A stretch of 64,000 bases of DNA, from assembly GCA_020081605.1 (NCBI GenBank), contig JAHREC010000045.1, forward strand, positions 310,001 to 374,000, written 5' to 3'. Made by a program: the position numbers and the translations under genes. This document shows positions 1,793 to 56,586 of the stretch, in pieces (positions within the stretch are counted from its first letter, which is position 1; each line of letters starts with the position of its first letter). The DNA comes from Albifimbria verrucaria (Eukaryota > Ascomycota > Sordariomycetes > Hypocreales > Stachybotryaceae). The notes under the pieces are model-generated. The model was not told the origin of the DNA, searched no databases, and worked only from the letters and a program-made list of their open reading frames with translations.

Positions 1793-2733
1793 CTACTCCT
1801 CCAATACTTCCTTGAAAGTGATATTGGCTTTTCCGTTACTGTAGGAACCTTGAACGGTCACTGCTTGATAGTCATATGACCCAAGGACTACCCCTTTGCT
1901 CTGCCACGCGTCGAAGTGATTTTTGTTGTAATTGTGCCTCCTATGCGCTTAGTCGTTCTCACGGACCACATCCTCACATATGTCCTGACTCCGTCAATCG
2001 AGGGTTGGTTGTATCGCATCTCTTGGGAAATGGAATAAACACCGTTATCTGACTTAATGGTCCCAAGGTATTTACCAGCCGCGGCGGGAGTAACTGCCGT
2101 CATCGTCAGCCTAGTAGAATGATAGATGGTATAATGAAGTTGAATTATTTGTCGCTCTCTCTTTTTTTTCTTTTTAAAGGGCGTGAAAGTAGGGACTGAA
2201 TTGGTCAGACGTACTGAAAGATGTCAGCAAAGCATACATACAGTTGCCAGTTTGTAAATGCATGAACTTACCGTGTTCCAAAGTTGTCAATTATAAAGTA
2301 TTCGACTAAAGGGTTCTAGGGTCTCGTAAATGGGGATATATCTCCAGTGCACAGGACAGGAACATCTACGTACTCTTGTCCACCCCGTTACACCAATGAA
2401 GCTATATCCATTGGACTCGTATGTTCCAGCATAGGAAATATTGCGATCGGATCCTTTGTGCCACCCCTTTCCAGCCTCAAAATTACCAGCGTGATACCAA
2501 GCCACATTGAAATTGGGGCTATTGTATGCACTTGTGAAATTGACAGTATCTGGGGTATCTGTGGCGAAGAAATCGCGATAGGGATCATCAATATCCGCAT
2601 GCCTTGGAAGACCAGACAGGGATGCTTTGTGAGAGGCTGCCCCTATACTACTGATCGATGCAGAGAGGACAGTGTTGAGGGCTGCAAGTAATAAGATGGC
2701 CAAATTCAAGACGGCCATTGTATACGACTTCAT
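1793..2733 (-). CDS. GH11 endo-1,4-beta-xylanase-like secreted protein
   Basis: Three exons: 2733-2374, 2315-2272 and 2110-1793, with introns 2316-2373 (58 bp) and 2111-2271 (161 bp). An N-terminal signal peptide (MKSYTMAVLNLAILLLAAL) is followed by GH11 landmarks: GKGWHKGS, a strand ending VTGWTR, then NPLVEYFIIDNFGT across intron 1, which contains the nucleophile Glu of the PLxEY motif, and PSIDGVRTYVRMWSVR in exon 3. GH11 enzymes cut xylan backbones outside the cell. Two oddities. The frame slips by one base at a T run (1920-1924), after which the expected NHFDAW-type block continues in another frame. The acid/base glutamate, expected in a TEGYQSSG-like block near the C terminus, is read as Gln (codon at 1850-1852). 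The fold family is certain; activity is doubtful. Confidence 0.85.
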
Positions 2734-4048
2734 CTTTCAGTAGTAATGATTCAGAAGATGCCCGTAGACAAGATGGAGAATCCGGGTATATCTAGGTTAC
2801 GACAAGAAAGACGGCTGCAACGGTAGCAAGTCTTTCTGTGTTCCTTTATTAGGATCAAGGCAAGCTGCCGTCTCTGAAAACTAACCTTCATTGTAACTAC
2901 CCGACACGTGGACATGCTCTGATTCTTGGCTTTGAATTACCGGTTTAACCGGTTTTTCCATACAGTTTACTACTCAGCCGAAGTGTGGCACTGCATAAAG
3001 CGAAACCTAATAGGTGGAACTTTCAAAGGATTTAAATGTTCTTACTTGAGCTGCATTCTTTATCGCTCAGAGTGAACTGGCTATATAGGTTACATCCTCC
3101 GATGCCCGATTCTGTAATACGAGGCGGACAAGCGAGTCACAGCGCATGAAAGCCTGTGCAAAGTGTTTTTCAAACCTGGTATTTATCGGGTTATAATTAC
3201 AATATTCCCATATTCAAGTCCTTATATTCATATCCTATATTCATTTGGAAATCAGTTTAATAAGTACTCTTTACTGGCAATGCTTTGAGACGCGCAAACG
3301 AGGACTTCTAATAGGTGGGTGTATTTAAGAATGTGTCTCTGAATCCACGTAATCCCTAGTTATGCCTATAAATCACCCTAGCACCTTGCTTATCTGAGGC
3401 TTGCTCAATTATGAGAATCGCCGTGCGTTGCTTCATATCTTCAACCCTGTTTCGCCGGAGTCTTTCGTAGGAATTTGCATCATACGTGTGGAAAACTGTC
3501 TTAGCTTACTCAATCCGTCATAATGTTCACGATAGAGTGCGTATCATGACGCTAGTGCCGCTTGCCATTACCTGGCATCATTTACAAATGCGGCATGTGT
3601 GTATGAATGCTTATAAATCCGCAACTTTCTGAGGCCCATATATATTCCCAATGCTGCCCAGCGCTGACCTGTCAGAGTTAGGATCATTATTGGCCGAGGC
3701 AAGTATTTGCGAATGCGCAATCCCGCACGATGTTTTACCAACTTCGGTTGACGCTTGGAACCTGAGAGAGATATCGAGTTAATCAGGGTCTACCTTGTCA
3801 CCGATTGTTTCCAGCCGAATACATGCACACTTGTTGGGTTGCTTGATAATCGGAATTACCACTACCCAAAACCCATGATTGCTGACGTGTGGAGTACTAG
3901 CCTGTGTGGTCCATGTGCGCAGTTGTAGAGGTTTCTAGCACCACAAACTTCAGGTAACATTTTCAATATAAAAGGCGTTTCCTAGCCATGTATCATTTGG
4001 CCTCATCCAATTCATCGTACAAGTCTTCAACAGCAGTAATTCTGAATC
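2734..4048. other. Intergenic, divergent promoter region
   Basis: About 1.3 kb between the divergent xylanase-like gene and the epoxide-hydrolase-like gene. It is AT-rich. No coding frame, repeat or RNA gene recognised. A TATA-like stretch lies near 3965 (atataaaag), about 80 bp before the start codon at 4049. Confidence 0.5.
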
Positions 4049-16770: not shown

Positions 16771-18181
16771 ATGTATGCTCTCCCGCTTCTCCTCGCTTCA
16801 GTCGTGGTTATGAGCCATGTCTGCGTCGCTCTCAACAGTGGGACTCAAACACTTCTTATTCGCAAGGAATGGTATATCTCATGACTTACTTCCAACCGCT
16901 TGGCTCGACTGACGCTGTGCTCTACTTAGGCGTACTCTTACAAGACGAGAACGGCTAGATTATATCGACGCTGTCAAATGCATGCAAGCCGAACCTAGCA
17001 GAGTTGATGGGTACTGGGAGGAGCCAAATTTCGTTTCGATGATTACCAAGCTATCCACATAGCGCAGACGGACTTTATGCATTTTTCTGTGAGGAAATCT
17101 CAGTGTGAACATGTACCATGGAGATAGATAACTGACTACTACTAGGGGCAATTTCTACCGTAAGTCCGTCACACAAAAAATCTCTCTAGGCATGATCCAG
17201 CCATTGAACAAACGTTATCAGATGGCACCGGTACTTTATCCGGCTTTGGGAGGAAGACTTAAGAAAGGCTTGTCGCTATAGCGGCGCGTTGCCCTACTGG
17301 GATTGGACACTTGACGCTCAAGACAACACCACGTTGGCTAAATCACCATTATGGGACCCTGTTTATGGATTTGGAGGTGAAAATACTTGCCTGCACACGT
17401 TGGATTTTACACTAACGGGGATATCACAAGGCAACGGCCACTATATTGAAGATGTCAGTCAATTTCCTCCATCGTGGATCTTACCAGGCATCGTTGTCCC
17501 TCACCGAACTGGGGGTGGATGCGTTACGACTGGTCCCTTTGCAAAGCGAAATGTAAACATGGGCGAAGGTAACACTACAGCATATACACCTCATTGCCTC
17601 CACCGCGACTTTAGTGGTGAACTATTCGCCATTACTACGAATGTGACAGTTGTTGACTGGGCTATGAAATCATCAAACTTCTGGTGGCTTGATCGGAACA
17701 TTGAGGGCTACGGTCTCACGATTGACGGTCTCAGGGTGCATGGCGGTGGTCATATCAGCGTCGGTGGTCAAGTCGGCACGGTAAGAAATCAGTTTTGTAA
17801 AAATTTTTCTATGCTAATAGTCTGACCGTTTTTAGATGATGAATACTTATTCTTCTCCTGGTGACCCGGTGTTCTACTTACACCATGCTAATATTGATCG
17901 CCTGTGGGCCTCGTGGCAAAAGCAGAGTCAGTACACTTTCTCATTTATAAACGGTAAAAATTGCGTGCTAATAAATAACCATAGAGTGGCCAGTCCGCAA
18001 ATATGACATTGGCGGTCCGGATACGCCTTTCGCATATCCGTACAACTTCTTTGGCGATATACCTTATAAGAACGTGACATTAAAAACCTCTCTCAACTAC
18101 GGTCCGTTTGCAGAGACTATTAAGATCCAGGATACGATGGATGTTGGGTCTCTTTGCTACACATATGACAAGTTTTATTAG
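16771..18181 (+). CDS. Secreted tyrosinase-type copper oxidase
   Basis: Signal peptide [20 protein letters not shown], then RKEW, an intron, and [17 protein letters not shown]. The CuA region reads [12 protein letters not shown] and [13 protein letters not shown] over two short introns, then [13 protein letters not shown]. The CuB region reads VHGGGH and, after an intron ending near 17834, [16 protein letters not shown] short C-terminal domain ends at 18181 with no long propeptide. Tyrosinases hydroxylate or oxidise phenols. In ustiloxin and phomopsin clusters a homologous enzyme (UstQ/PhomQ) modifies the core tyrosine. Frame breaks at a T run (17029-17031) and around the splice sites at 17095-17165 fit missing bases in runs. 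It converges on the O-methyltransferase gene (3' gap about 180 bp). Confidence 0.88.
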
Positions 18182-18357
18182 CGGCGAATCTTGTCAAGAT
18201 AGCACATATTAGGATAGCAGAATCACTCTGATAACTTTTGGGGACTTAATATGATATGATGCCTGCGAACACAATTTCTATTTTCTCTTCATTAATAAAA
18301 ATCTCTAGTCCTGCGAACCCGAACACTAATGCTGATATCAAGATGAACCCCTATTCA

Positions 18358-19744
18358 CTAAATAGAAGACGGTTTGTACACCAGCTCCATGATTCCTAAA
18401 AGTGCACCTGGCACAACATGTATCTCAGCTACCTCAAGCTGGGGAGTTGCCAGCTTGAGAACTCTCTTCCAGTCTTCTATAGTACGTTCTTTAGAGTTCT
18501 GCATGATGTGCATTTGGAGGTCCACCGCTGCAAGCAGCCTTTGAATGTTGCGAGGTGAAGCCCTGGCAGTATAACATCAAAAAGCACGACACGTGCACCA
18601 GGCCGCATCGCTGGAACTAACTGGCGCATAATGTCCACCACGTATTTATCGGACCAGTCATGTAGTACTGACTTGATGAGATATACATCTGCTTCCACAG
18701 GTTGCAAAGTGAAGAAATCATGTGCCTGAAAGGTGACTCGCCCCGTGTCTTGTAACTCTTTCGGCACACTAGCGTGAAATGCTAACTCCATCGCGGAAAG
18801 GTCCTGTACTATGAATCGGATGCGAGGATATTGATTGGCGAGCGTAACGCTGATATGCCCAGTGCCGCCACCGACCTATACAAAGAGATTAGTTAACATG
18901 ATCCAGCGCTATTGAATGGGGTGGCGTTGCTTACGTCTACTACTGTCTTGTCTGCCAAAGCAGCCCAGTCGTATAGACCTAGGACGGTATCAACACCAAC
19001 CGTCGCCATCAATGGCAGGGCTTGCATCGCTTCCCCATACGGATCGCTCTAAACCCTCTCGGCTGGTTTGGTTTCTCGTAATTCTCTAGAAACTGGAGAA
19101 ATGATAAGTCTCGTCGTTTGCCGTCCTCAAATGCCAGAGGAAACGCGCAGTGTTCATTCTCCTCTGTTGGCTGGCTGGTACCCTCGAACCATTTTTGCAA
19201 GGCCTCGACACCTTGCGCGGCTGCTGGCTTTACGTCCTCCATGCAATGAGCGATGAGGCTGCCTATCACCGGCTGGCTCGCTATAAATGCCGTGGCTGAT
19301 GTATGTACAACTCGGTCACTGCCGGGGTCTCCTCTGCGAAGAGATGGGACGCAATGGCGAAGCGGAGGAGGCGTCGTACGATGGACTCGGGAAGCCGTGT
19401 ATGCGACGCAATCTCGTCATAGCTAGCAGAGCTGGAGAGCGGTATCGCGCTGTAAAAGTTGAAGCGGTGAAGTGCATCGAATACAAAGGATTCTTGATTC
19501 AGGAGGAATGCTTGCTGAATAACATACTCAGTCGGACCTGTCGCGAGATGCAGCATGTCCATCAGATGCTCTATCAGCTGGAGACGCACACCCTGGATCT
19601 CAGGTGTTGCGGGGAGAACGAACGGTCCGTCGGCGGCGAAGGAGGGTTCAGGATGATTGGCAATTCTAAGCTCAGCGGAGAGGATTGCAGCCAACTCGGC
19701 GATTCGATTGCCATAGCTTTCTATGGAGAGGGAGTTTGGGACAT
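18358..19744 (-). CDS. COMT-type SAM-dependent O-methyltransferase (first)
   Basis: Start at the ATG ending at 19744 (MSQTP). This needs one base restored in the following C pair region; the long frame itself has no ATG. The N-terminal winged-helix part (FNFYSAIPL, HTRLPESIVRRLLRF) is followed by FRAIRMG, an intron at about 18880-18935, the SAM-binding strand VDVGGGTGHISVTLA, and VLHDWSDKY, which carries the catalytic His-Asp of plant and fungal COMT-like enzymes. Then come PGARVVLFDVILPG and KERTIEDWKRVL. The length (about 425 residues) is normal. Frame breaks occur at 19324-19327, 19033-19036 and 18561-18563, each in a G/C run. It likely methylates a hydroxyl on the cluster product. It shares a divergent promoter with the UstYa-type gene at 20072. 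Confidence 0.88.
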
Positions 19745-20071
19745 GATTCAATAGATATTGTTTCAGGTAAACAGAGAGCTGTCAAAGTGTGAGAATAAAG
19801 GAGGACACAGCAAGTCCTCTCCTAGCATTCAGTTTGTGAAAGGCACCTCCCAAGCTTACACACCCTTGCATGCGTGCTCAAGTGTGGAGGCTTGTTATGC
19901 CCACCCCTGATGCCCTGTTTCTTCCTCTCTTCTCATCTACAAAAGGCACAGGCCATGTGTAGAGTAAAGGGATCGCATCATAAAATATCCTTATAGAGTC
20001 TTTCTCTGTTCAACTGCTCTTGTTTCTTCTGACCTGATCGGCGACAGGAAAGCCCTTATTGACAATCAGTA
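19745..20071. promoter_or_regulatory. Divergent promoter between methyltransferase and UstYa-type gene
   Basis: 327 bp between two start codons pointing apart, which suggests shared regulation of the two genes. No specific binding motif is identified. Confidence 0.5.
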
Positions 20072-20792
20072 ATGCTCTGGTCGTCAACTATTGCGTATCG
20101 ACCTCTGGATGGTGATTTTCCGTCGCCGTCCAAGTCTTTAGTACGGCACAAATTTCTTGTCGTCCTGTCAAGCTTGGCGATGGTCGCCCTAGGTTTTGCA
20201 TTTGGACGCTGGTCAGTAAGAAGTATAGAAAATCAGCCTGCGTGTAAGTGAATTGCCTTGGACGCTTTTGTAACTCTACTAAATCTCATCCAAGTCGAGA
20301 AATCATGGTATACTTTCTCATACAATCGCACCTTTGGGGAATCCTCAGATCAGGCGGACAAGGCCTGGGAAGACATCTTTCCGAGGCAAAAGGGATACTT
20401 CTCGCACCCAATTATTGCACCTGAACGATCGACATTCTCTGTATATCACTATTTACATTGCTTGGTATGCCATCCTTTGTAATGACGAGAAACGACAGCT
20501 AACAGTTTAAGTAGAATGGCATTCGTAAAGGCTACTGGGCCATGCATGATATGGCTGTGGCCGGTCATGGATTCAATGAAAGCGGTTTGCCTATGATGAT
20601 TTCCCACCACATATTCGACACTGTATTGATCTGTTGCGACATAGTCTTATGTGCAATGCTGATCTGACAGTCGAGGTGAAGGACCAAAAGGCTGGTGGTG
20701 TGCATGGGTTTGGCACTCAGCATCAATGTATAGACTGGTCCGAACTCAATCACTGGACAACACAGTGGGAGTCGAAGAAGACCAGGCAATAG
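20072..20792 (+). CDS. UstYa-family (DUF3328) oxidase, first copy
   Basis: Three exons. The N terminus is cytosolic (MLWSSTIAYRPLDGD) with one transmembrane helix (KFLVVLSSLAMVALGFAFG). After an intron comes the lumenal domain (KSWYTFSYNRTFGESSDQAD, then AWEDIFP). The first HxxHC motif is HYLHC, placed exactly before the second intron. The second is HIRHC, followed by IDLLRHSLMCNADLTVE and QHQCIDW. Two HxxHC motifs and one membrane anchor define the UstYa/DUF3328 proteins that oxidatively cyclise dikaritin RiPP cores (ustiloxin, asperipin). The second motif lies after a one-base break in a C run at 20603-20605. About 205 residues, normal for the family. It converges on the second methyltransferase (52-bp gap). 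Confidence 0.9.
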
Positions 20793-20843
20793 GAACAAAT
20801 ATCCAATAGCACTGACTGCATAGCTACGAAAAGAGCTGCCTAT

Positions 20844-22242
20844 TCACTGTGATTCCCAAACTACTTCCAACATTGCGAGTGAAGAGGGTGGCAGCTGAAC
20901 TACAGACTTGAGTTGGAAACGAGGGTCAGCCTTAGTGACAAGCTGCGTCCATTCTTCGATAGAACGCTCCTTGCTGTTGAACACGGCCATCATCGCAAGA
21001 TCTTGGCATCTAGTCTCTGTCAGCAACATGGATCAAACGAGTTCCAAGGGGGCGGGGCCGGAGGACATACCTAACCTGCCGTTCCTGAAATTTTGAAATG
21101 ACTCCAGGAGGTGGGATACAGTTGTCATTGATGATGATCCTAGCACCCGGCTTGAGCGCAGGAATCAAATGCCTCAAAATACGAAGGCAGTAATCGTCAG
21201 GCCAATCATGCAGGATCTTACGAAGGAAGTATGCGTCTGCGCTATGGACAGGCTGCGGTGAGAAGAAATCATGTTCCATCAGTGTAACAGCATCCGTGCT
21301 TCGTGGTGGAAGCGTCGAGCGGGTGTGCTCAATCACACTAGGCGTATCCTGGAGGACCACGCGTAAAGTAGGATGCATGTCAGTAAGCATGACGGCGAAT
21401 GCACCATCGGCGCCACCAATATCGACGACGGTCGCTCCTTGGCCGAGAGCGCCCCAATCGTAGCCCCTGAGTGCCGCCGAAGGCTCAAAGCCAGGCATGC
21501 TTTGCATCATACCCATGCTGCGGGCAAAGCGACCCGCCCGTGCCGGGTCCTCCTCGATCTTTGCGAAGAAAGGAAGTTCGGTGCGCTCGGCTAAGTTGTG
21601 TCCTGTCTGCGTCGGGAGCGGTGGACCGGGCCACTTTGCTAGTGCGGGAACAACATGGGGTGCGGCTGGCCACATGTCCTCGCATGCATTCCCGATAAAG
21701 TCGTTTAGGGCTGGCGACTGGGCGAGCATGGCGGAGCAGGCGGAGTGAGCGATGTAGCCCGGGCGCGGCTGGTCTAGAAGATAATTGGTGACTGCATGCT
21801 GCAGGATGCGGGACATGGCATCCTCATTCGCACCAGACCGCTTTGATACTTCTGCGATGGAGACCTCCTCGCCGACAGGAAACAGCCCGGCCACCTTGTA
21901 ACGGTACAAGGCATGCAGACTCACCAGGTCATACTTTGATCCACCAGTCAGTTCATGTAGACTCATAGAGTAAGGAGCGGTGCAGACTTACCGTGTGGCC
22001 TACCTGGTTCAAGAGCCAGCCCATGGGTCCTAACAGCAGGGCATTCAGCTCATCCAGTGCTGACAGAGCCGCATTGAGAGATTGTTCAAGCGCAGGAGGA
22101 AGCAACAATTTGGGGGTGAGCCAGGGGCAAGTGAGGGACTTGGTAGTCCATTGTCTTGCAGGTAAGTCTCGATACTCGTGGTATGCTCCAGTATAGCAGC
22201 AGCAAGCTGAACCGTGCGTGGGGAGGACTGTGGTGATTCCAT
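20844..22242 (-). CDS. COMT-type SAM-dependent O-methyltransferase (second)
   Basis: Start at the ATG ending at 22242 (MESPQSSPRTVQ). The N-terminal part continues over an intron near 21970-22010 into the winged-helix dimerisation region (LHALYRYKVAGLFP, GANEDAMSRILQHAV). Then come RSMGMMQSMPGF, the SAM-binding strand VVDIGGADGAFAV, and ILHDWPDDYCLRIL with the catalytic His-Asp, then LKPGARIIINDN. A last intron near 21010-21060 leads to DLAMMAVFNSKERS and the C terminus VVWESQ. Full length, about 430 residues. It is clearly a paralogue family member of the gene at 18358 but not a recent duplicate. One frame break lies at the G/T run 22110-22116. It probably acts in the same pathway as the two UstYa-type proteins flanking it. 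Confidence 0.9.
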
Positions 22243-23150
22243 GACTGTAGCCAAAACGGTATCGAATCTATTCTGCTTCTGTCGTTCGTCTACGGTGAGT
22301 GAGATAACAGGGAAGTGGCAGGTAATTTCATTGCTCCAATGTCAGCATATTATATCCGAAGCCAACATACGCCACCAACAAGGTCTAATGGAGATAGAGA
22401 GCTGACTGCATCGAGGGCTCATATGATATTGGTTGGTGCCATGCACTAAGCATAGGTATGCCATTTTACTACATCCAAACAACATACATGGTGGCAGTTG
22501 GTTGCCAATGTAAGCAGGATTCAACCTTTCATCCTATTTACTCCAGCTTAACCAATAGGAGGTTGAGATTCTTGACAACGGACGGCACCCCTTGCAACTT
22601 CTTCTTGGCGCAAAGGTGCACATGTCACACACCATCCAAGGATCTAGGCGCGCCAACACAGAAAAGGTAACTCTAGGCGCTCTTGTTTTGCACGGCATAC
22701 TGTAGGGTCCCGATTTATCCTGCCACGACGATCCAACGAAACAGAAGAGGAGATCTGGATGAACGATGTAATACCACTTTAGAGCTAGACAGGGATTCTA
22801 GCGGATGGTGCGGATGATTCCGGATACAACGAACCTCAAACACGTCAGGTAGGGATGTATGGATCCCAAAATTGGTCACCAACAGTTTTGAGAAAGAACT
22901 CTACACTTGAAATCATGACGCAACTTTCAACTTCCATATCTGCGCTGGTTTGTTTGATAGCATCGTGGTCAATGCGTGGCAATATATTGATAGCCTCTAG
23001 CCTCTAGCTTAACACCCAGCATTTTCTAGCTACCTAGTAATACTTAATTTCTGCAACATATTCTTAGAGCAATTGAGACAAATCCTTCCAAATTCCACCC
23101 TATTGATTGTCTAGTTTCCTAAGCTCCTTGAGATTGTGCTTTCCCATCTT
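22243..23150. other. Intergenic, no gene recognised
   Basis: Open frames of 60-70 codons (22342-22670) have no domain. It contains the 5' flank of the methyltransferase and the 3' flank of the repeat peptide gene. Confidence 0.5.
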
Positions 23151-23380
23151 TTAGTCGTCAGTGTAGAGATCAGGGTATATGATCTCGGCATCAGCATCAG
23201 GCTCGGGATACACTATAGTGTCGTCGACGTCTGGCTCTGGATAGACGATAATGTCGTCCACATCGGCTATATCTCGTCAATATCTAGACCTGGCTAAGTT
23301 GACGACAGATTCTTACCAGGGAGTGGAGCGGCTAACACGCTCACAATGGCATTTATGAGAAGAAACAGAGAAGTCTTCAT
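23151..23380 (-). CDS. Repeat-containing secreted peptide, candidate RiPP precursor
   Basis: Not in any long open frame because it is split by a 50-bp intron (23267-23316, GTAAGA...ATATAG). Exon 1 (23380-23317) encodes a signal peptide (MKTSLFLLINAIVSVLAA) plus PLP. Exon 2 (23266-23151) encodes A and three 11-residue repeats, DVDDIIVYPEP, DVDDTIVYPEP and DADAEIIYPDL, then YTDD and a stop: 59 residues in all. Each repeat has an Ile/Val-Tyr-Pro core behind an acidic spacer. This is the form of dikaritin precursors (signal peptide plus tandem Tyr-containing cores), but the usual Lys-Arg spacers are missing. It lies between an O-methyltransferase and a divergent UstYa-type gene. The family assignment is inference; the gene structure and repeats are directly visible. 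Confidence 0.7.
23166..23264 (-). repeat. Three in-frame 33-bp tandem repeats in the peptide gene
   Basis: Units at 23264-23232, 23231-23199 and 23198-23166. Units 1 and 2 differ at seven bases, six of which are silent third-position changes and one changes Ile to Thr. Unit 3 is more diverged (Ala for Val and Asp, Glu, Ile, Asp-Leu). Confidence 0.9.
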
Positions 23381-23859
23381 TTTGATGAGCTGGGAGTTAG
23401 GTAACCAAGCTTTGGTAGAGAATAGGGGCTTTCGTCTATCACAGCAATATAACCGAGCATGGGCTCGTGTTTATACTTAATACTCTACGCTGCTCGATCA
23501 ATCCAGTGGTGCGGAGCTCGTGGGAGCAGCTGCTCGTGTAACACCGTGTCGGTAAAGGAACGCTTTTGCCGATGGCCATCTATGTTCGATGCAACGTACA
23601 GCGCAACTTATTCCCAATACAGTACCTTGGCATACTGCCACTGCATGTGCAGACTGACAGGATTGTAATACCCTCATCAGCTACTCTATTTGGAACTTTG
23701 GTATGCATATGCAGCAGCAGGGACCTGCAGACATCACCGGATCTGCATGGTCCAGGCAAGGATCGCGCTATTTACCCTGATACAGAACTTGCTACCCAGA
23801 GAACCTATCACTCCTGTAAACTTTATCGAAAACATTGAACTCCCTATTTCTTTTCGTCG
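23381..23859. promoter_or_regulatory. Divergent promoter between repeat peptide and UstYa-type gene
   Basis: 479 bp separate the start codons of the peptide gene (minus) and the second UstYa-type gene (plus). Co-expression of substrate and oxidase from one shared region would be expected. No binding motif identified. Confidence 0.55.
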
Positions 23860-24781
23860 ATGTTAGCTCCCAGAGTTGTTCAAAACATACCAATGATGCA
23901 ACAAGACAACAGTATGGCAATTGTAGAAGAAAGGCCTCTTCTTGGCTGTCAAGAAGATGATTCCGACAATACAAACAACTTGATGATCAAGCCTTATTCT
24001 GAGAAATCGTCTCCTCGATACTGGATCTATGCTGTTGCTCTTCAAATAGTACTCCTTCTCGGCTATAGCTTAATTTCTCTCGCTATCATCAGAAGATTCG
24101 TCGATGCGACCTCTGATCCCGACATTAATGGTTAGGAACCCTGTTTCCTTCTATGAAGAACTTAGGAGAGATTTGATGGTTACTAACCATTTTTCAGCAT
24201 TTGCTGGACTCGCTGTGCGATACAAGTTCCGATTGTACGACAACTTCGTCAACAGCCCTTACGCTGGCGAACCGACACCCGAAAGCGATCAGGCCTGGCA
24301 TGTGTTGCTCAACAATATGAGCGTTCGAGTGACGGCAGAGGAGCTCGAGGCTCATGGCCAGACATCTGTCGCTTTGCCCAACGGAGGTTACCTGGCCTGG
24401 CTTGGTGTGTTTCATGAATTACATTGTGTCAAGATGCTCCGGCAATGGAGCTGGCGAGAACATTACTTTCCAAATCTCACGGCACATGATCACATGCATC
24501 AGATGGTTCACATCGACCATTGCCTGGACTGGCTTCGTAACGCTGCCATTTGCAGGGCCGACACAAGTGCTTTGGCTGTATTCAAATGGGATAAAAGAAT
24601 GCCACATCCAATGTTGAACACACATCGAGTACAGCACCGCTGTGTAGACTGGGACGCAATGATGGAAAGCCATGCTGACCGAGTTGTGCCGCATGAAGAG
24701 GTGGCAAATCTGCAGAACCCACTTATGGGAGATAATATTACGGCAAATGGTGAAGACATTGCTGTTGATAGACTACCTTAG
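23860..24781 (+). CDS. UstYa-family (DUF3328) oxidase, second copy
   Basis: Exon 1 encodes a cytosolic N terminus (MLAPRVVQNIPMMQQDNSM) and one transmembrane helix (WIYAVALQIVLLLGYSLISL). An intron at 24131-24197 with a TACTAAC branch point follows. Exon 2 has AWHVLLNNMSVRVTAEEL, ALPNGGYLAWLGVFHELHC (first HxxHC motif), a short helix, HIDHCLDWLRNAAICRADT (second HxxHC motif), and HRCVDWDAMM. Both motifs lie in one uninterrupted frame, so this copy is intact. UstYa-like proteins act as copper-dependent oxidases on secreted peptide cores in the secretory pathway. It is divergent to the repeat peptide gene. About 285 residues including the long cytosolic tail. Confidence 0.93.
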
Positions 24782-25405
24782 GTCCCAGAGAGTAACCAAT
24801 CGCTAGCTCTATCACCCTTAAGTCTCTTAGATACAGATGTTATAAATAATAGTGCCTTCGTAGTGAGAATTTCGTGTTGGGTTTACTAGCTGAAAGCTCT
24901 ATGGATTGTTCTCTGCGCCATCACCTCCCCATTAGGTTGTGGGCCTCCAAACTTGGAAATTCCTTTTCTTAGAACCCCTGAGGTTGATTACTATCTTCAA
25001 AGTCCCTTGTTGTCTAGAACAGGGGTGATTGCGCGCTAAAGTGATATTATGTCTCATCGGTCACACACCATATCTTTAGCTGGTAAGGTGAACGGCTGTG
25101 CTGCATCTGCATGAGACCCCAGGGCTTGGCCAAGTTAGGAATGCACACCAAACAATATCTGATATTGTATGGATACACGGATGAGAGTTACAGGTGAATG
25201 CAAGAGTAACAGTCAGCCCGGTCCCTTTCCTTTCCCAAATATTTGTGGTTATCCTAGCCTCGCAATGTCGCCTGGGGAAACGTCCGCCTGATGCCTTTAA
25301 ACAAACTTGCGACTCCACGGTTCCTTCAGTAGAAAGTCTTATTAGCCGGCTGGAGTCCAATCTAAAAGAATCATCGTTACCACTATTCAAGGCGCTTGAC
25401 ATACA
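24782..25405. other. Intergenic, no gene recognised
   Basis: Promoter of the rhodopsin-like gene and 3' flank of the UstYa-type gene. The antisense frame at 25076-25402 shows no domain. Confidence 0.5.
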
Positions 25406-43174: not shown

Positions 43175-44896
43175 TCAAGTTGTTTTCCACCCCATGAATA
43201 TTGCCTCGCTCTGATGTACTTGCTCATAATGCTTCTCGATATCCTCCCTACTAACTCCATTCCTAAGCTTGATTGCGACGTCCAGGCTTTTCACTTTCAG
43301 AGTAAGGTCCGACACGAAGCCGGTGTCAAGGTCTAGATCGACACCCCTCTCCGCACTTTGCGGCTGCAGCTCAAATGCCCACAGAAACTTGGCCATGCCG
43401 ATCAAGAAGCTCTTCTTGGCCGACTCCATTCCTAGGCACACCCGCCTACCTGCGCCAAAGGTGTAGTTGGTTCGCCGTCCCTGTCCCTCAAGGCGTGCGG
43501 GATCGTGGTTTGTGTCCACTCTCATTCCAAGCGGATGATGGAGGAAACGTTCTGGGATGAATTCGTCAGGCTTTTCGTAATCTGCCTCGTTGTGGTGAAT
43601 GTGCCAGACGTTGGGGATGATGGTAGCGCCTTTCGGGATACGATGGCCGTTGACAGTGTCGTCTCGTGCTGGTGCATGAGGAATGCCCATAGGAGCGACA
43701 GGGCGCCAACGAAGAATCTAAGGAATAGGTAGATTAGAAAAAGTGGCGACATCATTGTCTGATAGGTAACTATGGCAGCAGGATATTTACCTCATTATAG
43801 CATGCTTCCAAGTACTTCAGATCCGGTAAGTTGTCTACTTGAGGTGGTGCACCACCCAGCAACTCGAGGATCTCGTTTCTAACCTTCTGTTGAACGTCTT
43901 GATATTTGGCAAAAACCATGAGTGCCGTGGAGAACAAAACCAGAGAGGAATCTGAACCACCTATCAGCATGGTAATAGCAATTAGGCTCAAGTCTCTCGG
44001 CGTGTAGAAGGCGTCCTTTTCGGCAGCTTGATCTCTCATGATTTTAGCCAATAGACTCTCAAATGCTTTCGAGCCTGCGTCTATAGAAGCACGCTGTTTT
44101 CTGGCGGCTTCGCGAACCGCGTTACCAGGAATCAGAAGTGCGTTCCTAACGCCTAGGGCCTTACGCTTCCATTTTGCCATGAACCCAGGGACGTATCGTA
44201 ATAGAGGAAATACGTCGGTCGCGCCAGGCGTGGAAACGGCGAACCAGTCCTCCATTACGTGTCTGAAGTTGTCAAATACACCGAGATCATCTGGCCGCAT
44301 GCCGCACAGCTCGATGCAGGGCACACTCAGCATCCCAAGCGTCAAAACATCCATGAGATCGTCCCCAGATGCCGGGCCAGATTCCAGTACTTTGACCAGA
44401 AGCCTAGCAGCTTCAGCCTCGAAAACTGGAGATAGCTTCTTGATAGAGGCTGAGCTGAGCATAAGCGAGACGTCTTTGCGCCAGCGATTAAGCCACGCAT
44501 CATTATTTCGAAACACTGCAATGTTCATATCATGGCGCAAGATCCATTCTGCGTTGATATACATGTATGGGCGATCACTGTACACGGCTCCGCGTTTGTC
44601 AAAGAACTCGTGAACCTGGCGGGCACTGTTTAGTACGATGACGTTATTGGCAGCTGACTTCCACCCAAGGGGTGTGTCACTGCCATACAGCTTTGCCCAC
44701 TTGCTGAAAGTACGGAAGGAAATTTTCTGTCAACTTGGAGAAGGTTACCAAGTCCGGGCAGTCCCAAGGGCCCAGGTGGGAAAGACTTCGGGCGGAGGGT
44801 GCCATAGAGGAAAACCAAGATATTGGCAAGTATGAACAACAAGGGTGTGTAGACGAGGATTTTGTAGGCGAACGGAGTTTCTTGGAGAGAAATCAT
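43175..44896 (-). CDS. Cytochrome P450 of the polyketide cluster
   Basis: Start at the ATG ending at 44896. N-terminal anchor (VYTPLLFILANILVFLYG), then PPGPLGLPGLGNLL. The I-helix reads ITMLIGGSDSSLVLF (Gly-Ser-Asp-Ser in place of the usual AGxDT). The K-helix is NEILRWRP, interrupted by an intron at 43718-43788, then PNVWHIHHNEADYEKPDEF, PERF, and the heme block FGAGRRVCLGM. Full length, about 515 residues. It fits the CYP class near O-methylsterigmatocystin-oxidoreductase-like enzymes. In betaenone and stemphyloxin clusters a single P450 oxidises the decalin scaffold, so a similar role is inferred. One frame break at an A pair (44716-44717). It is divergent to the SDR gene. Confidence 0.9.
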
Positions 44897-45544
44897 CTTG
44901 TATAGTTACAAAGTAAGCTGTGCCCCTGTAAGTGGCCAAGCATTGACATGGGCACAATGGTTGTAAATGTGGTAGGGATAAGTCGAGGTGTCGACTCGAT
45001 CGAAACAAAGTATCCTTGCGTTTGAGACATACCCCTCATTCATTACATCTTTTTCTACTTTATCCCTTTATATGACAAATCAGACTCCGCGCTTGATTTC
45101 CTGAGGGTCCCAAGATTACGTCGGCATGAGTTTGGGAGGTTCAGCTGAGGGCCAGCATCACTTCTTCGGTCTTCAGATCACCCATCTCCTGATCTCCTCT
45201 TCTTCGCACTTCAAGAATAAAGGAGCCGGAAGTACCGATCACATAGGAATCCTAAGATAAGAGCTGAAACGCCGATCAGTCGATAACGGCATTGGGACAT
45301 CGGAAATTCCGGAGCCTTGTGTCGGACCGGACCGACAGTGCTTCATGCATAAGCAGGGTGGTATTCCGTCTCCCCTCTCGGTACTCCGATTGTTATTGTC
45401 AGCATGCTAAGCCGTTTCGGTAGATCCTTGTTCGCCCTCAGATGATAGACTGCGTGACCGAATCTCTCTTCCTGCATCCATTCCTCTTCTCACATCCCTC
45501 TCTCACTTCTGTACGGACTCTGGTTGGTTAACCCACGATCAACC
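44897..45544. promoter_or_regulatory. Divergent promoter of P450 and SDR genes
   Basis: 648 bp between divergent start codons. It holds a CGG-N6-CCG site (listed) inside a GC-rich patch near 45300-45340 in otherwise mixed sequence. Confidence 0.6.
45323..45334. promoter_or_regulatory. CGG-N6-CCG candidate zinc-cluster site
   Basis: Reads CGGACCGGACCG, an inverted CGG pair spaced by six bases, about 210 bp before the SDR start and 430 bp before the P450 start. The form fits a dimeric Zn2Cys6 regulator such as the one encoded at 57943-59193. A second site with the same spacing lies in the PKS/ER promoter. Confidence 0.4.
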
Positions 45545-46482
45545 ATGGCGAGAAAGTCAGTCCTTATCACCGGCTGCAGCGATGGGAGTCTCGGCTATGC
45601 AATGGCTAAGATATTTAGCGAGCATGGTTTCTTGGTTTTTGCCACTGTACGTGACGTTGCCAAAGCTGGCTCGTTGACCCAGGATAAGAACATTGAGGTT
45701 GTGGTCCTCGATGTAACCTCAAGAGAATCCATCAACAGCTGTGCACAGACTGTACAACAGAAGACCGGTGGTACCCTGGATGTCCTGGTCAACAACGCTG
45801 CTCTGAGCACCTGGTTCCCGCTTCTCGATGTCGACGTCGACGAAGCGAGGCGGGCTTTGAAACCAACCTTTGGAGCACGTTAATCATCACCCAAACCTTC
45901 ATTCCTATGCTTGTCCGCGCCAAAGGCACTGTCTGCAATCATGGCTCGATTGCTGGATGTTTCCCGATGCTATGGGATGGTATGCTTAATTCCAATCTGT
46001 TGAGCACTAAACTATACATTGATTTGGGCTAATTTTGCAACTGTCAAGGTATTTACGGAAGCTCCAAAGCCGCTGCTAAGCACATGTCCGAAGTCCTGCG
46101 ATACGAACTAGAACCACTAGGGGTGCGTGTCCTATGTGCCCTGATTGGGATCGTGGACACCCCTATGTGGGACAAGCAAAAGCCCCTCGCACTCCCTGCC
46201 AACTCTCTCTATCGGCCTGTACAAGGAATCATAGATCAAGTGCGATCTGCAGAGAAGGGTGCCAAGCCTACAGGGCGGGACAGTGCAACACCGGAGGCCA
46301 CTGGAAGGGCAATCATACGCCACATTCTACAAGGTCGAACAGGTTTTGTATGGGTGGGTGGCATGGCTGGTAGACTAAAGTTTCTCATAAATTGGCTTCC
46401 TCCCAGCGTAGTCTTTAAAATCATGAACAAGTCAAGGGGCTTGGAAGCGCTGAGAAATGCTAATCTGGTTGGAAATATCTGA
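45545..46482 (+). CDS. Short-chain dehydrogenase/reductase (AYR1-like) of the polyketide cluster
   Basis: Start at ATG 45545 (MARKSVLITGCSDGSLGYAM); the longer frame upstream lacks an ATG. The Rossmann motif TGCSDGSLG, the LDVLVNNAALS strand, the catalytic Ser in HGSIAG and, after an intron at about 45981-46048, the active-site YGSSK are present. A C-terminal hydrophobic part (WVGGMAGRLKFLINWLPPSV) suggests membrane attachment, as in the yeast AYR1-type acyl-DHAP reductases. NADPH-dependent reduction is expected. Betaenone clusters include an SDR that acts on the PKS product. One frame break at the G run 45852-45854. About 290 residues. Confidence 0.88.
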
Positions 46483-46966
46483 GAGTCCTGTATTACCTTT
46501 TTGTTCTACAAATTGCTAGCTTGAGGAGAGAACGTCCACTGTTCTGACAATTATCAACACATATATGTTGTACTCGAGTTGCATTAGGAGCTCAGTTTGG
46601 TATAAATCAAGACATGTCTTATAATCCTCTTGTTCATGTCCGCGATTATTGATACAGCGTTCAAGAGAATGACGATAGATCAACATAATCACTCGAGGCT
46701 AGATTCAAGGCTATCTAATAAACACCAGCCGCCAAGCTCAGGTGGTATTATTCATATGTTAAAGATTAGTTTCAAGTCAAAGAATGAATTAGGGCGGACG
46801 ACAGTCTACGAGATCATGTATTACACTAAGTGAGAGGGGATATTGTTCAAACTAATGAGAATCAATCTTCTTATCCATACAACTCCAATAACTCCACCAA
46901 CTCCGTTTTGCGCCGTAAGACGATCACCTAGCTTTTAACCACTGAATTCGCATAAACGATACCTCC
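46483..46966. other. Intergenic between convergent SDR and PKS
   Basis: 484 bp of shared 3' flank. The open frame at 46630-46833 shows no domain. Nothing else recognised. Confidence 0.5.
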
Positions 46967-49900
46967 CTAGACCTTTCCACGACGCAAGCTAGGAGCTTGA
47001 ACTGCATAACCGGTATCAAGAAAAGAGCTCTCCACACCTCGGCTCATACCCATTTCCGTTGCCTTCCGCAACCACTTGTCCAATGGGTAAACTTCGACGT
47101 CTGATCCAAGCTTCTCCTGTACATGGCAGCGAGATTAGCCATGCCGTATTTCTCGTCACTGCAGTAATTGTGTATGGCGAATAGTTCTCCATCATGGCTT
47201 AGGACCGTCGACACAAACGTGGGTGCTAATTCTTCCACGTCCATGACTTCGAGCTGTCCCAGCCATCGCTCGGGATTCAGTGCCGGCACGGCTCGCATCT
47301 TAGTGCAGTAGAGGTCTAGCGCAACAAGATAGTGCTCTTCTGGGGCTCCGTTACCCATGATGTTTACGAGGCGGTGCACAGCACTTGGTATTTGCCCAGG
47401 CGCCTTTTCAATCAGCATCTCAGCCACCCACTTGCACGTTGCGTAGCCAAATCCAGGCCTTAGCTGCGACTCGGCATCTGATGGAGGAGAGAAGCTTGAC
47501 ACTGAGGTCTCGGCCAGCTCACTAGCCCCACCTTGGAGTAGGGCGACCGCTGAGGAAGAGATATAGTGGAATGGGACTCGTCGTGGTGTAGCCATTGCAA
47601 GTAAAATCTGGGTCGAGCCGAGGTTGGCGTTACGCAGGGCCTCGTAGGACTTGAGCAGATTTACATCGGCTCCCAGGTGGATAATTACATCGGCTGTTTT
47701 CGCAAGGCTAGTGAAGTCTTCAGAAGAAAGTCCAAGCAGCGGCTTAGTCAAGTCGCCTTGATATTCGCGGACTTTGGAATGCTGGACTCTGACACGCCGT
47801 GAGCGAACTGCAAGGCAGTGAATCTCTGCAACAGCTGGGTCGGCAATGAGAGTGCGGAGTATATGTGTGCCTATGAATCCGGTGGATCCTGTGATAACCA
47901 CACGGCGTCCATTGGATTGATGAGGAGTCCGTGCTGTCAACACCCTGGGGACGAGAAGAGAGATCCCATCTATGAGTCCTTCCACCTCCTTCGCCCAATC
48001 TGTTTGCTTGTCAATAGACTTGGTGTCATTAACAGCGGGGACGGCGCCGTTAGTGGCCTGAGCGGTGCCGTTTGTGACAGGAGAGGCGCCATTCGCAACA
48101 GGAGCAGTGCCATTGACCTCAGGCTCTGGTTCTTTTCGAAGCTTTCGCCAGTCCACAAGCACATCTTCACAGAGTCGTGACATTGAGTAACTCGAGGACA
48201 GAATCTTCAAAACCGATACGTCGACGCCGACTTCCTCGAGGAACCACTCTCGAATCCGGACAGCCACCAGGAATCGATACCCAGGTTAGCTACAGGCATA
48301 TCCCGGTCCATCTGCTCAGGGTCGATCTCTAATACTCTACCCAAGGTTTGCGAGAAACACTTTTCTAGAACCGCCAAACAAAGCGCCGGTTCCTTAGCAG
48401 CGGCCAACTGAGCCCCAACGCTTGTGCTTTTGCTTTCTTGGGCTTTTCCTTTCGCTTGCTGCGAGCCCGAGCTGTCTTGTCGAGCAAAATAGCATGAAAG
48501 TCTCAAGTCGCGCCGCCTTGGGACCTCGGAAGATGTCTCAAGACCAGTGATTAGCTCTGGTGGTGCGTTCGAACCCGGTCTACCGCACACTATGGCTTCT
48601 GCCAACATTTCGTGGAGTTCTGTCTCGCTCTCTCGAACAGCCCTTGCGAAGCCAGTTTCTTGCAAGGTTGCGGCGTGGTCTGCATTCGTTCGGAACACGT
48701 AACCGAAGCCTGACATAACAGCCAAGACGACAACTGACCCGGGCAGCCCTCTGTTGCGTCGTTGACGAATAAGGCTGGTCATGGCAAGGTTGGCAGCATT
48801 GTAGGCAGACTGACCGATATTTCCAACAACCGTCATTGTTGAAGATAATGCAATAAAAATTCCAATTCGGGATGACCATCACTGAAGATTTCGTCAAGAA
48901 TTTGAGTTCCCTTCACCTTAGGGGCTAACACTGCCGCAAAGTCGGTCCAAGACATGTTTACAAACATGCGGTCACGAAGCACCATAGCGCCGTTAATGAC
49001 GCCCCCAACCGGTGGCATGGTAGATTTGATATCAGCATATGCAACACGCAGAGCGTTTCGATCTGTAATATCCACAGCCATGGCGCGCACGGTGGCACCC
49101 TTCTGTGCCATGAACTCGATCACGCTGGACGGGACTTTGGGGTTCGGCTAACCAGAACCACATTCTGGGCTCCATTTTCTACCATCCATCGGCAAACGGA
49201 TATACCCATGTCTCCTCCCATTCCAAATAGAAGATAAGTCTTGTCGGGAGTGAACAAATGATGATCCAGAGGGCGAACAATGGTGGTCACGTCACTGGCA
49301 GCACGCCAGTCAAGCACCATTGTAGGCTCGGTTTGCTTTAGTGTCTCTGCCAATGTTACCTGGTCGATAGATAAAATCGGAGCACTTCTCAAGTCCTTTG
49401 AACTATCCCGGAAATGCTGCTTGGCCAACTGGAACAATTCCCAGCGGCTTACAATAAGATTCGTACCTCCGAGTTCCTTTACTTCTGTTGAAGAAGGTAA
49501 AGTGGCTCGCATCAAGGTGTGAAGCGCCTCATTCTGTGGGTTTTCCAAGTTGATAAAGGTGCGCACATCCTTGGGGCGAATCTTATTTAATGCTCCGCTG
49601 TTTGCGTAAGGGTGAATGAAGATGCTACCAGAAGAATTGGCAGTGTCAGATGTAGTCTGGAATACTGAGATATTCTGCTCTTCAGCAGCGTAGTCAATGA
49701 ATTGCTTGAGGTCCTCTGAGGCGCCGTGGACCCATATGGGCGAGGTTGAATCGCGAACAAGATTTTCGGCCAGTACGCGTGCCAGAAAGTTGCTCAGTTC
49801 TGTAGCATCGTTGGTATCGCTGCTGGCTGTCTCGGTCTTGGCCCAGCGATATAAAATTTGATCTTTGTCAGCTGTGGCCAGGGAACTTCTTGAATGAGAC

Positions 49901-52900
49901 AGAGCGAGGATCTTGTCTCCCGAAACAAGTTCCGTGCCAATGCACAGGTATACAGGTCCATGCTTGTCAAGATTAAGGGTAGAAATCGATGATACTGTAA
50001 CTCGGAGTTGAGTTTTGTTATCTTTCTCCAGGCTACGAGGAAGAGCCTGCAGTTCGAGTGTCCCCTGCTCAGAGAGCACGACAGCTGCATCGGTGCGGTC
50101 AAGCTTAGTCTCTTGACTCACTTGTCGGTTCCTTGCGGCGGTTCGATGATTTACCGTATCTAATGAGAGCACCCTGGGTATATAGATTGCTCCATCCCGT
50201 AGCGAAAGTTCCGGCTCATGCGTCCATTGCACGTCGTCCCACCTTGACTCACCTATGCAGGCAAGTCGTAGAAATAGGGTCGCTAGCATGGATGGATCAA
50301 TGGCGGACAGCTCGTCGACATCAAGGAATTGAAGCCGAAGATCACTCCGCTCGACTAATGCCGTTCGTCCTAGTCCCACGGTGACGCAAGCTTCAGGATT
50401 CTTCCCTGAAGTCGCCCCAAGTGTAACCCAGAGAACAACATCTGCATTTTGAATAATATTCTGTAGGCCCTTGAATCTCTGTTCATTCATGTCATGGAAA
50501 ATGGGGTCGTCCACATCGCTGAGGCAGAGAACAGCCGCTCCAGTGGGGATTTCGATGCCCTCAAGCTTAGACTTCCTGGTAGCTGAGGCGCCAGTAGTAG
50601 CACTCAGAATGGCTTCCGTCCTTGACGCTAGGTCGGAAGTCTCACCACCTAAAATTAAAATCTCGCCAAGAGGTGGTAGCGTCTCCGGGGTTGCAGCCAG
50701 TGGCTCACGGAGGATTTGTACCGTCTCATCAGTCGCTTGAGACATCATGACACTACAAAATGAAGGTGTCGAACTTGTATCAACACCAGAAAAGCCTGTG
50801 GACTTCAACAGAGTATCCCATCGATCAACACTGACGGTCGGTGACCAAACACGCCCATCTTCAATGCCTAAGAACCAACCAGGAAGTGTAGACATGTAAA
50901 GTTGCATGGGAAGATTGTCGTCGGTAATTTCTACCAGAAGCAGATATCCACCAGGTCGAAGCAACTGTCGACAATGCTGCAAAGTTTCCTCTAGTCGCCT
51001 TGTAGCATGCAAAACATTCGAGGCAATGACCATGTCATATGAACCCTCGCTGAATCCTTGGGCAATCGGATCATTTTCGATGTTCAGCGTCTTGAATGTT
51101 ACGTTGTTACTATCCTTCTTGAAAAGACTGCGAGCTTTCTCAAAGAAGCCCACGGATATATCTGTGTAGGTGTAGGAAGCGTAGTGGTCCCCTATGGAAG
51201 CTAACACACTCTTGGTAGCACCGCCCGTGCCGGCTCCAACTTCGAGTATGCGCATGCGTGGGTGTCTACACGCTAGCTGTTTTGCCAGATTATGGATATC
51301 AGTGTTCACAGCCTCGACTCCAAGTCCTTCCACGTACAGGCGCTCAATCATGCCATCTCGCATGAGCACCTGAAGGAGGGACGTTGCCCTGACGATGTCT
51401 GGCAGATTTTGACCCACGGCATGCAACAGATTCATGTCAATATTTCCCGATGCCAAATAACCGCTGCCGAGCTCTTGGAGCATTTCCAGCGTGTCATTCT
51501 CCCACTCCGGTCGTATGTCTGGGTGTTCACCTGCTTCGATTTGGGGAAGAGGTGTTCTAAGACCCATCTCATCAAGTGTCTCTGATACTTTTCAAGAGAG
51601 TCTAGCTCTGAGGGTTTGATCTCTTTGCGAAGAAGGCGGTAATAGCAGTAGGCTGTACGCATTAAAAGTTCGCCCAGTGCTATGTCTTCGTCTGAAAGCT
51701 TGGCTTTGAGATTCGGCTCAATGCCAGAAGCAGCGTCCCTTATCCAAGTCTCACTGGCGTAGAGCCAACGATCTTTGTGCTTACCAAGTGCCATCAAGCG
51801 GACGCCACGCATTTGTACCTCAGTGTGCGAGTCTGTTGCGTCAAACAGATCAACATCGCCAATTATGGATGTTGCGTCTCCAGAAGTTACCGTGATATCG
51901 GCCTTGAAAAGAGGCGATGGCGACGGCGAAGGCTCCATGCTAATTCTTACACAGTCGATGTGAGTGGGCAGATATGTCGTATGAAGACGGCCATCTCCAG
52001 GGAATGAAAAGGCAGCCAATAGGCCTTGGATGGTGGTGTCTACCGGAGCAGGGTGCATGGACGCGCGCATCGTGGAATTCTCTGGAGGTGGAGCAACCGT
52101 TATCTCGGCTTGGTTGAGTCGACGCATGATAGATGGAACAACAAACTTCCCCGAGTAGTTGTATCCCAGCTGTGAGAGGCTTGAATAGAATATTTCCGTA
52201 TTCAATGGGTCCGTCGGCAGCAATGGCTCAACTCTGGGAGGCAGGCTATGCTCCTTGGCCTGGCCCAACCAGAGTCGCACGCCTCCGCTGAAGTGGGCAT
52301 TGATACCAGGCTGGAAGCTATCATGTTGGCCCTGAGCATCAACCGCGCCGCTGTAGCACGCCACTTGAGCGGTGATGCAGTCAGCTGTCTGACTGGTAGT
52401 GCGTATGGTGAAGAGAACTTCCAACCCTGTGGAGTCCTCTTCTAGGCGCATAGGTCGTACCAAGTCAATGTCATGCATTTCAACAAGGCGAATTGGCTGC
52501 TCATCATCTGCAAGTCGTACTGCAGCTTCGTACGCCATCGACAGATATCCAGAGGCTGGGAACAGGACTTCGCCCTGAATACGGTGACCGCGCAGCCAAG
52601 GAAGCTCACTCAGTCTAAAAACCTGCCGCCAATGAACCTCGCGCCTGTCTTGCTCGCCATGTTTGAGAGGATGACCCAGAAGCTCGTGCCGAGGTTCGCT
52701 TTGAGTACGTAAAATCCGAGACGCCCTTGGCTCTTTCCACCATGTATTCTCATGGTCCCAGGAATATGTTGGAAGGTCCTTCATGACGACAGGTTTCCGT
52801 GATGTGCTAGATGGGAATGCTCTATTGACTCCTTCAAAGGTGATTAGTGGACGTGACGATGGGAAAGACTTCCACACAAGTCCCAAGGCATCCGCGAAAG

Positions 52901-55851: not shown

Positions 55852-56586
55852 GTTGAATACTGCGACAAGGGGCAAGGAAATTGATACTCAGTAAGTGATG
55901 ATCGATTTGATGGCTAGTTTGATTGTGAGAACTATCCAAGAATATAGAAGAAACGTGTTAAGCCACGAGCGAGAGGGCTCCCTTATTACAAGATTGAGAA
56001 GTTGCCACTATCAACCCTACTGTGGTATTATTCTGTGGCAAGTCAAACATCACCACTTGGTGACTTTTTCTCGTCCGGTGGATGGTGTTAATCAGCTCCA
56101 CGTCCTCGGATGCAATCCTGTCGCCCCTCAAAGTGCCGTCGTATCTCGGTTCTCGCAGCTACCGTTATTCCGCGATTCCAAGATTCCGTTGCTATTCCCA
56201 TTTTTGCGTCAAACAAGAGTTATTGCAGGAGTACTGCTTGCTGGCAAGTTTCTGCCGGTGCCACTCTAGTCCTTTGGGGCGTCGCCCGAATCGCTCGACC
56301 GGTAATTGCCGAGTTCCGCCTCCGGTCCCGCTTCAGCTGCCACTTTCGGTTTGTGCGTCCACCCCGATGCCGAGTTTACATGCAGCCGATGTGACATTGT
56401 GACGAGCCGTATGCAGGCTGGAGAGTCGACTTTGAAGTTATGCTGACCACCTGCAGCTAGAAAAGAGGAGACTTCCAAAACCCGAAGTACAGACAGGCTC
56501 GATCTTCTAGTCAATGCTCTTCGATTTCCCATGAGTCTTAGTTAGTCATATTCACACAACAACACACAATACGCCAGATCCTTGCA
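55852..56586. promoter_or_regulatory. Divergent promoter of PKS and trans-ER genes
   Basis: 735 bp between divergent start codons, with a second CGG-N6-CCG site (listed). Open frames inside it have no domain. Confidence 0.6.
56300..56311. promoter_or_regulatory. CGG-N6-CCG candidate zinc-cluster site
   Basis: Reads CGGTAATTGCCG, about 280 bp before the ER start and 450 bp before the PKS start. It has the same spacing as the site at 45323-45334. Confidence 0.4.

Follow-up and report, generated by a model that had tools for sequence, protein, structure and literature searches.

In the genome of the fungus Albifimbria verrucaria, a small gene for a Tyr-bearing repeat peptide lies head to head with a gene for a DUF3328 (UstYa) protein. 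The two most likely form a dikaritin-like pair, a conserved peptide free of Kex2 sites with its own UstYa oxidase, surrounded by extra enzymes of uncertain role. The window analyzed here is a stretch of 64,000 nucleotides (contig JAHREC010000045.1; G000:C33:310001-374000 in our numbering of contigs) from a 48.4 Mb assembly of 41 contigs. The 8 kb of interest contain, from left to right, a tyrosinase (+), O-methyltransferase (OMT) 1 (-), UstYa-1 (+), OMT2 (-), the peptide gene (-), and UstYa-2 (+). An original prediction had placed a tyrosinase, two OMTs, two UstYa proteins, and a small peptide with three Tyr repeats in these 8 kb, and all of them are present: the enzyme domains were identified with Pfam, and the peptide is supported by homologues. 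Searches of a large protein set were made with the peptide, UstYa-2, and the tyrosinase.

The Peptide and Its Conservation

The peptide gene and its parts are as follows.

23151..23380, minus strand: precursor peptide gene, 59 amino acids, two exons joined over a GT-AG intron, supported by homologues
23317-23380, minus strand: exon 1, signal-like N terminus (translation)
23267-23316, minus strand: intron, 50 nucleotides, GT-AG (sequence)
23151-23266, minus strand: exon 2, 37-residue mature part (translation)

The peptide begins with the hydrophobic stretch MKTSLFLLINAIVSVLAAP, which forms a helix at residues 3-16 in a structure model of low confidence that is otherwise uninformative (predicted template modeling score (pTM) 0.23). 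The look of the N termini suggests that both the peptide and the tyrosinase are secreted. The mature part reads DVDDIIVYPEP / DVDDTIVYPEP / DADAEIIYPDL / YTDD, that is, three 11-residue Tyr repeats and a tail with a fourth Tyr. Because it contains no Cys, His, or Met, Tyr is its readily oxidized side chain. Calculated monoisotopic masses without modification are 4226.899 for D23-D59, 4676.163 for A18-D59, and 4747.200 for A17-D59; a cross-link would lower them by 2.016, and a hydroxyl or an O-methyl group would raise them by 15.995 or 14.016.

A search of 5.8 billion proteins returned six candidates, all homologous (E values 4.2e-20 to 4.6e-11), from Podospora didyma, Lasiosphaeria miniovina, Echria macrotheca, Rhypophila sp. 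PSN 637, Xylaria sp. FL0043, and a JGI record. Conservation was counted over seven sequences, the window peptide and these six homologues. Thirty columns are invariant, 29 of which fall within the mature part; in Podospora didyma and Echria macrotheca (P0001 and P0003) the mature part is identical at 37 of 37 residues, and the signal part varies. The mature part has 37 residues, 13-14 of them acidic, and three repeated cores in every sequence. The start of P0006 looks like unspliced sequence, with similarity beginning where exon 2 of the window gene begins, and this would fit an intron at the same place. The six homologues and the invariant columns indicate that the peptide is real and not a product of chance, and such conservation points to a definite biological role, which is unusual for this class. 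No second copy was found in the same genome. An exact-word literature search with four stretches of the peptide gave no match, and searches of titles and abstracts likewise gave nothing; most subscription papers and all preprints lay outside their scope.

None of the seven mature parts contains Lys or Arg, so Kex2 (KR) sites between the cores are absent, as are cutting sites for trypsin, and the spacers are as conserved as the cores. The original prediction had seen a new member of the ustiloxin, phomopsin, and asperipin kind, and these two points leave that assignment without good support. The lack of Kex2 sites keeps the peptide from being filed under ustiloxin-type precursors, though by analogy it may work like a dikaritin. 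The same two points argue against an ordinary dikaritin pathway, in which the tyrosinase, both UstYa proteins, and both OMTs would act on three protease-freed cores to give a small methylated cyclic peptide. This pathway is favored by the presence of every enzyme kind inside 8 kb, and we nevertheless consider it unlikely.

Repeats 1 and 2 within one protein agree at 9.4 of 11 positions on average, and the values between species are 9.7 for repeat 1 and 10.2 for repeat 2. Repeat 3 agrees with them at only 4.9 and 5.0 of 11 positions, but 9.0 of its 11 positions are kept between species. A third repeat unlike the other two but kept between species had probably diverged before the lineages of these fungi split, and nothing in the sequences points to ongoing multiplication of repeats.

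Conservation of the whole mature part, unlike most cores of ribosomally synthesized and post-translationally modified peptides (RiPPs), could also mean that the peptide is not a substrate at all but is secreted as a signal or effector, or serves UstYa-2 as a protein partner. Pheromones are listed among the Kex2-processed fungal repeat proteins in the available part of one survey (PMC7329392). A copper carrier is unlikely, since Cys, His, and Met are all missing from the window's mature part and its relatives have at most one Met (one each in P0005 and P0006), and three Tyr-Pro repeats with a fourth Tyr suit the substrate of an oxidase. We hold a non-substrate role to be improbable, more so than the ordinary pathway.

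UstYa-2 and Its Linkage with the Peptide Gene

The divergent partner of the peptide gene has the following features.

23914..24782, plus strand: UstYa-2 (DUF3328), PF11807 E 3.1e-40; exons 23914-24130 and 24198-24782, assigned by eye
24413-24427, plus strand: HELHC motif (by eye)
24509-24523, plus strand: HIDHC motif (by eye)
23381..23913, no strand: intergenic region between the divergent peptide and UstYa-2 genes, 533 bp, or 479 bp with the upstream ATG

The start at 23914 was chosen after the homologues, and an in-frame ATG lies upstream at 23860. The 533-bp region may possibly serve as a two-way promoter. Both the peptide and the UstYa-2 genes are free of frame changes. Paired HxxHC motifs had been claimed for both UstYa proteins and are indeed seen by eye in the sequence, with frame shifts between the two motifs of UstYa-1. 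In UstYa-2, the HxxHC residues are invariant or at least 90% conserved across 32 aligned sequences; the alignment took 31 of 37 relatives, leaving out P0030, P0035, P0037, P0038, P0042, and P0043 as fusion, short, or partial sequences. In a model built from the 32 sequences (predicted local distance difference test (pLDDT) 78.1, pTM 0.64), residues 52-83 form a membrane-type helix and the motifs lie in helices 160-175 and 186-209, numbered from the upstream ATG. No solved structure was found for UstYa-2 by sequence, and a search by fold gave no match with an E value at or below 0.001.

Among 557 candidates, 37 relatives of UstYa-2 had E values of 1e-10 or better. The six best, from Lasiosphaeria, Echria, Neoarthrinium, Podospora didyma, and two Diaporthe, share 69-79% identity with it across 79-92% of the query; a UstYa protein of Lobaria immixta is 40% identical. 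Within its own genome, the best-scoring match to another UstYa locus is 33% identical over 183 columns, and one 39-column piece reaches 41%. Scanning the sets viral_contigs and genome_contigs with the alignment of UstYa-2 found no relatives. The record P0035, on a contig of 14,476 bases, is very close to the first exon of UstYa-2 and reads through the intron; it probably comes from a sister species.

Three of the six peptide records share a contig size with a UstYa-2 relative, namely 6,970,587 bases (Podospora didyma), 3,990,345 bases (Echria), and 32,040 bases (JGI), a shared contig being taken from the equal number of bases printed for the longest contig. Conservation of the peptide and its linkage with UstYa-2 at the level of contigs give good support, as a prediction from sequence, to a ribosomal peptide modified by UstYa.

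A Proposed Two-gene Unit

On balance, we favor the reading that the peptide and UstYa-2, head to head, are the conserved unit and make a modified ribosomal peptide in which UstYa-2 oxidizes Tyr and the 37-mer matures as one piece; our confidence, somewhat above even, applies to this explanation as a whole. The peptide would enter the endoplasmic reticulum. The DUF3328 enzyme CctR is a membrane-associated di-copper oxidase, and the available part of its description proposes that the catalytic part lies in the organelle lumen (PMC12435403). By analogy, UstYa-2 would be a di-copper oxidase acting on Tyr in the secretory path. In each I/V-I/V-Y-P unit the Tyr would be linked, most simply, to the Ile that precedes it by two positions or to the adjoining Val or Ile. 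The acidic peptide would then be released as one polycyclic 37-mer and not as three cut cores; that it stays whole is suggested by the absence of dibasic sites together with the conserved spacers. In A. verrucaria, the tyrosinase and the two OMTs may add hydroxyls and methyl groups.

Several points weigh against this proposal. The shared contigs rest on equal printed lengths, and two of them are megabases long, so that only the 32-kb one speaks for close linkage. For the other three peptide records, the list holds no UstYa-2 relative of matching size. Cleavage at acidic or proline sites could possibly still give three cores. Finally, repeats 1 and 2 appear as alike within one protein as between species, so separate roles for them find no support.

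A bolder extension of the two-gene unit is a new class of fungal RiPP, with a leaderless, Kex2-independent precursor whose whole 37-residue product is made polycyclic, and possibly catechol-bearing, by a dedicated di-copper UstYa oxidase. The task of this product, for example signaling or the binding of metal, would be conserved, unlike that of a fast-evolving toxin. We put this forward as tentative. If true, it would point to a missing type of precursor for DUF3328 clusters in which searches for repeats and Kex2 sites fail.

Neighboring Enzymes

The other enzymes of the 8 kb are listed below.

16771..18181, plus strand: short tyrosinase with a signal-like start, PF00264 E 1.5e-22 on one exon
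18358..19781, minus strand: O-methyltransferase 1 (Methyltransf_2), from Pfam, frame broken several times
20072..20792, plus strand: UstYa-1 (DUF3328), PF11807 E 2.7e-15, C-terminal piece
20447-20461, plus strand: UstYa-1 HYLHC motif (by eye)
20610-20624, plus strand: UstYa-1 HIRHC motif (by eye), with frame changes between it and HYLHC
21010..22242, minus strand: O-methyltransferase 2 (Methyltransf_2), a 325-amino acid open piece at 21013-21987 plus an N-terminal part in other frames

The tyrosinase has 224 relatives at E values of 1e-40 or better, and the best among the matches listed is 67% identical (Thozetella). Comparison by eye of contig sizes for the best 120 of the 224 showed no tyrosinase relative on the contigs of the six peptide records, a comparison that tyrosinases without a gene model would escape. 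A tyrosinase conserved like UstYa-2 should rank at the top, and since none was seen there, the tyrosinase was probably added locally, which again counts against an ordinary dikaritin pathway.

The Methyltransf_2 matches of the two OMTs have E values of 2.6e-23 and 2.1e-19, and over 105 columns OMT1 and OMT2 share 38% identity. The N-terminal part of OMT1 weakly resembles a dimerization domain, under the Pfam cut-off, and a C-terminal exon of OMT2, seen by eye, likely reaches to about 20.84 kb. By eye, transporter-like frames, heavily broken, adjoin the tyrosinase at 15.0-16.1 kb; neither of two pieces of them gave a Pfam match. The P450s reported at 6-14 kb are real in that P450 domains occur at 6.8-7.4 and 12.5-12.8 kb, but nothing links them to the peptide. 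Any role that the OMTs, UstYa-1, and the P450s may have in the peptide pathway is putative. Farther along, at 43178-57633 of the window, lies a polyketide synthase-like gene broken by frame changes and named by eye from its open frames, surrounded by frames that resemble P450, short-chain dehydrogenase, and zinc alcohol dehydrogenase genes (by eye).

Frame changes occur inside the tyrosinase, UstYa-1, OMT1, and OMT2, and they were described and not mended. In the tyrosinase, the change lies near 17.01-17.03 kb, and the five exon pieces downstream read cleanly. HSP70 genes also change frame, with an ungapped family match, at C8:3626024-3627277 and C36:775439-777420, and two genes of the window, the polyketide synthase and one resembling an arabinofuranosidase, look frame-broken by eye as well. 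Assembly error, probably in the form of indels, was therefore judged likelier than decay of the cluster. Against an assembly error that hits every gene stands the best HSP70 gene, which reads over 571 family positions without a break (C15:2599961-2601685).

Related Neighborhoods in the Same Genome

The A. verrucaria genome has 35 matches to PF11807, merged to 28 loci, together with 37 tyrosinase loci and 20 Methyltransf_2 loci. Within 10 kb, there are six UstYa-OMT pairs against 0.24 expected, all at two places (the 8 kb described here and C8:832-837 kb), and three UstYa-tyrosinase pairs against 0.44 expected, two of them in the 8 kb; a UstYa, a tyrosinase, and an OMT came together within 10 kb in 74 of 20,000 random placements. 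These pair counts are inflated by side-by-side genes, a single gene may have entered as two loci through separate matches, and the control takes no account of the clustering of biosynthetic genes. By this simple control, the enzyme kinds are co-located above chance.

The second place, at C8:829001-839000, carries a Methyltransf_2 gene close to matches of the UstYa type, which lie on both strands, and this recurrence of a UstYa-OMT association in the same genome is in line with an ordinary dikaritin pathway. It also raises the possibility of two adjacent modules in the window: the peptide with UstYa-2, and the tyrosinase, OMT1, UstYa-1, and OMT2 making an unrelated compound. The C-terminal piece of UstYa-1 is closest to the UstYa at C8:829-839 kb (44% over 52 columns) and just 28-40% identical to the relatives of UstYa-2, and the OMT of that place shares about 38% identity with OMT2. 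A scan of that region for Tyr-bearing repeat peptides found none in open frames, introns being ignored. A similar set of genes without a repeat peptide makes UstYa plus OMT look like a module of its own, and the OMTs need not act on the peptide. Two modules would be compatible with the two-gene unit; however, the genes interleave and the peptide gene adjoins OMT2, and we treat this arrangement as possible but doubtful.

A scan for at least three Tyr-bearing repeats in the open frames of 19 stretches around other UstYa matches found no relative of the peptide. It did find one short GYP-type repeat (L034) and one Kex2-type precursor (L032, G000:C8:595001-605000, at 2705-3214 on the minus strand). 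The latter looks canonical, with six repeats of about 25 residues of the EVFSGDGHLGINSDASESSYDVKR type near UstYa exons, and the KR, KKR, or KER between its repeats contrasts with the Kex2-free peptide; it is a candidate for an ordinary dikaritin precursor. Elsewhere, a short tyrosinase lies within about 2 kb of a UstYa match (C8:181001-191000), and three UstYa matches occur in 5 kb at C15:254001-264000.

Comparison with Known Systems

If borne out, a Kex2-free family of three-repeat peptides with its own UstYa oxidase would be a part of the class that surveys looking for signal peptides with repeats and Kex2 sites have missed, as far as the available parts of these surveys extend (PMC7329392, PMC12048977). 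The peptide, together with the enzyme that is its likely partner, would also offer a short, synthesizable substrate for studying DUF3328 copper enzymes on Tyr.

The plant BURP-domain peptide cyclases are of plant origin and form a protein family unrelated to DUF3328. They nonetheless resemble the system proposed here in their copper-dependent cyclization of ribosomal peptides, and the CctR paper, in the part available, notes a similar four-His plane (PMC12435403).

As in the dikaritins ustiloxin, phomopsin, and asperipin-2a, a DUF3328/UstYa enzyme is encoded here next to a short peptide whose repeats contain Tyr and Ile/Val. Unlike the dikaritin precursors, this peptide has no KR between its repeats, which number only three and have conserved spacers. 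Tyr comes first in the ustiloxin and phomopsin cores, whereas Ile precedes Tyr in this peptide. The methyltransferases also differ from those of dikaritins in being Methyltransf_2 O-type enzymes, and one source, in its available part, states that OMTs are unreported in dikaritin clusters (PMC12048977). A tyrosinase and a methyltransferase lie nearby as in ustiloxin and phomopsin, both of which require a tyrosinase; for ustiloxin, UstQ (the tyrosinase), UstYa, and UstYb are all required for the first intermediate, and the asperipin-2a cluster is described, in the part available, as four genes with AprY and no tyrosinase (PMC6514808).

With the Kex2-processed repeat proteins, the peptide shares a signal-like start, tandem repeats, and a nearby DUF3328 gene. 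The available part of that survey describes ustiloxin-type precursors as a signal for the endoplasmic reticulum followed by repeats parted by Kex2 sites, and demands such sites between repeats, of which this peptide family has none (PMC7329392).

The lichen clusters of Clan R1 differ in carrying an FGE-sulfatase, and the three PF03781 matches of the A. verrucaria genome lie on C8, C6, and C15 only. In the part of the report available, no repeat precursor is identified for Clan R1 (PMC12048977). Its gene kinds are the same as those found here, with two DUF3328 genes, a tyrosinase upstream, and an OMT between (PMC12048977), a likeness that lends some support to an ordinary dikaritin pathway.

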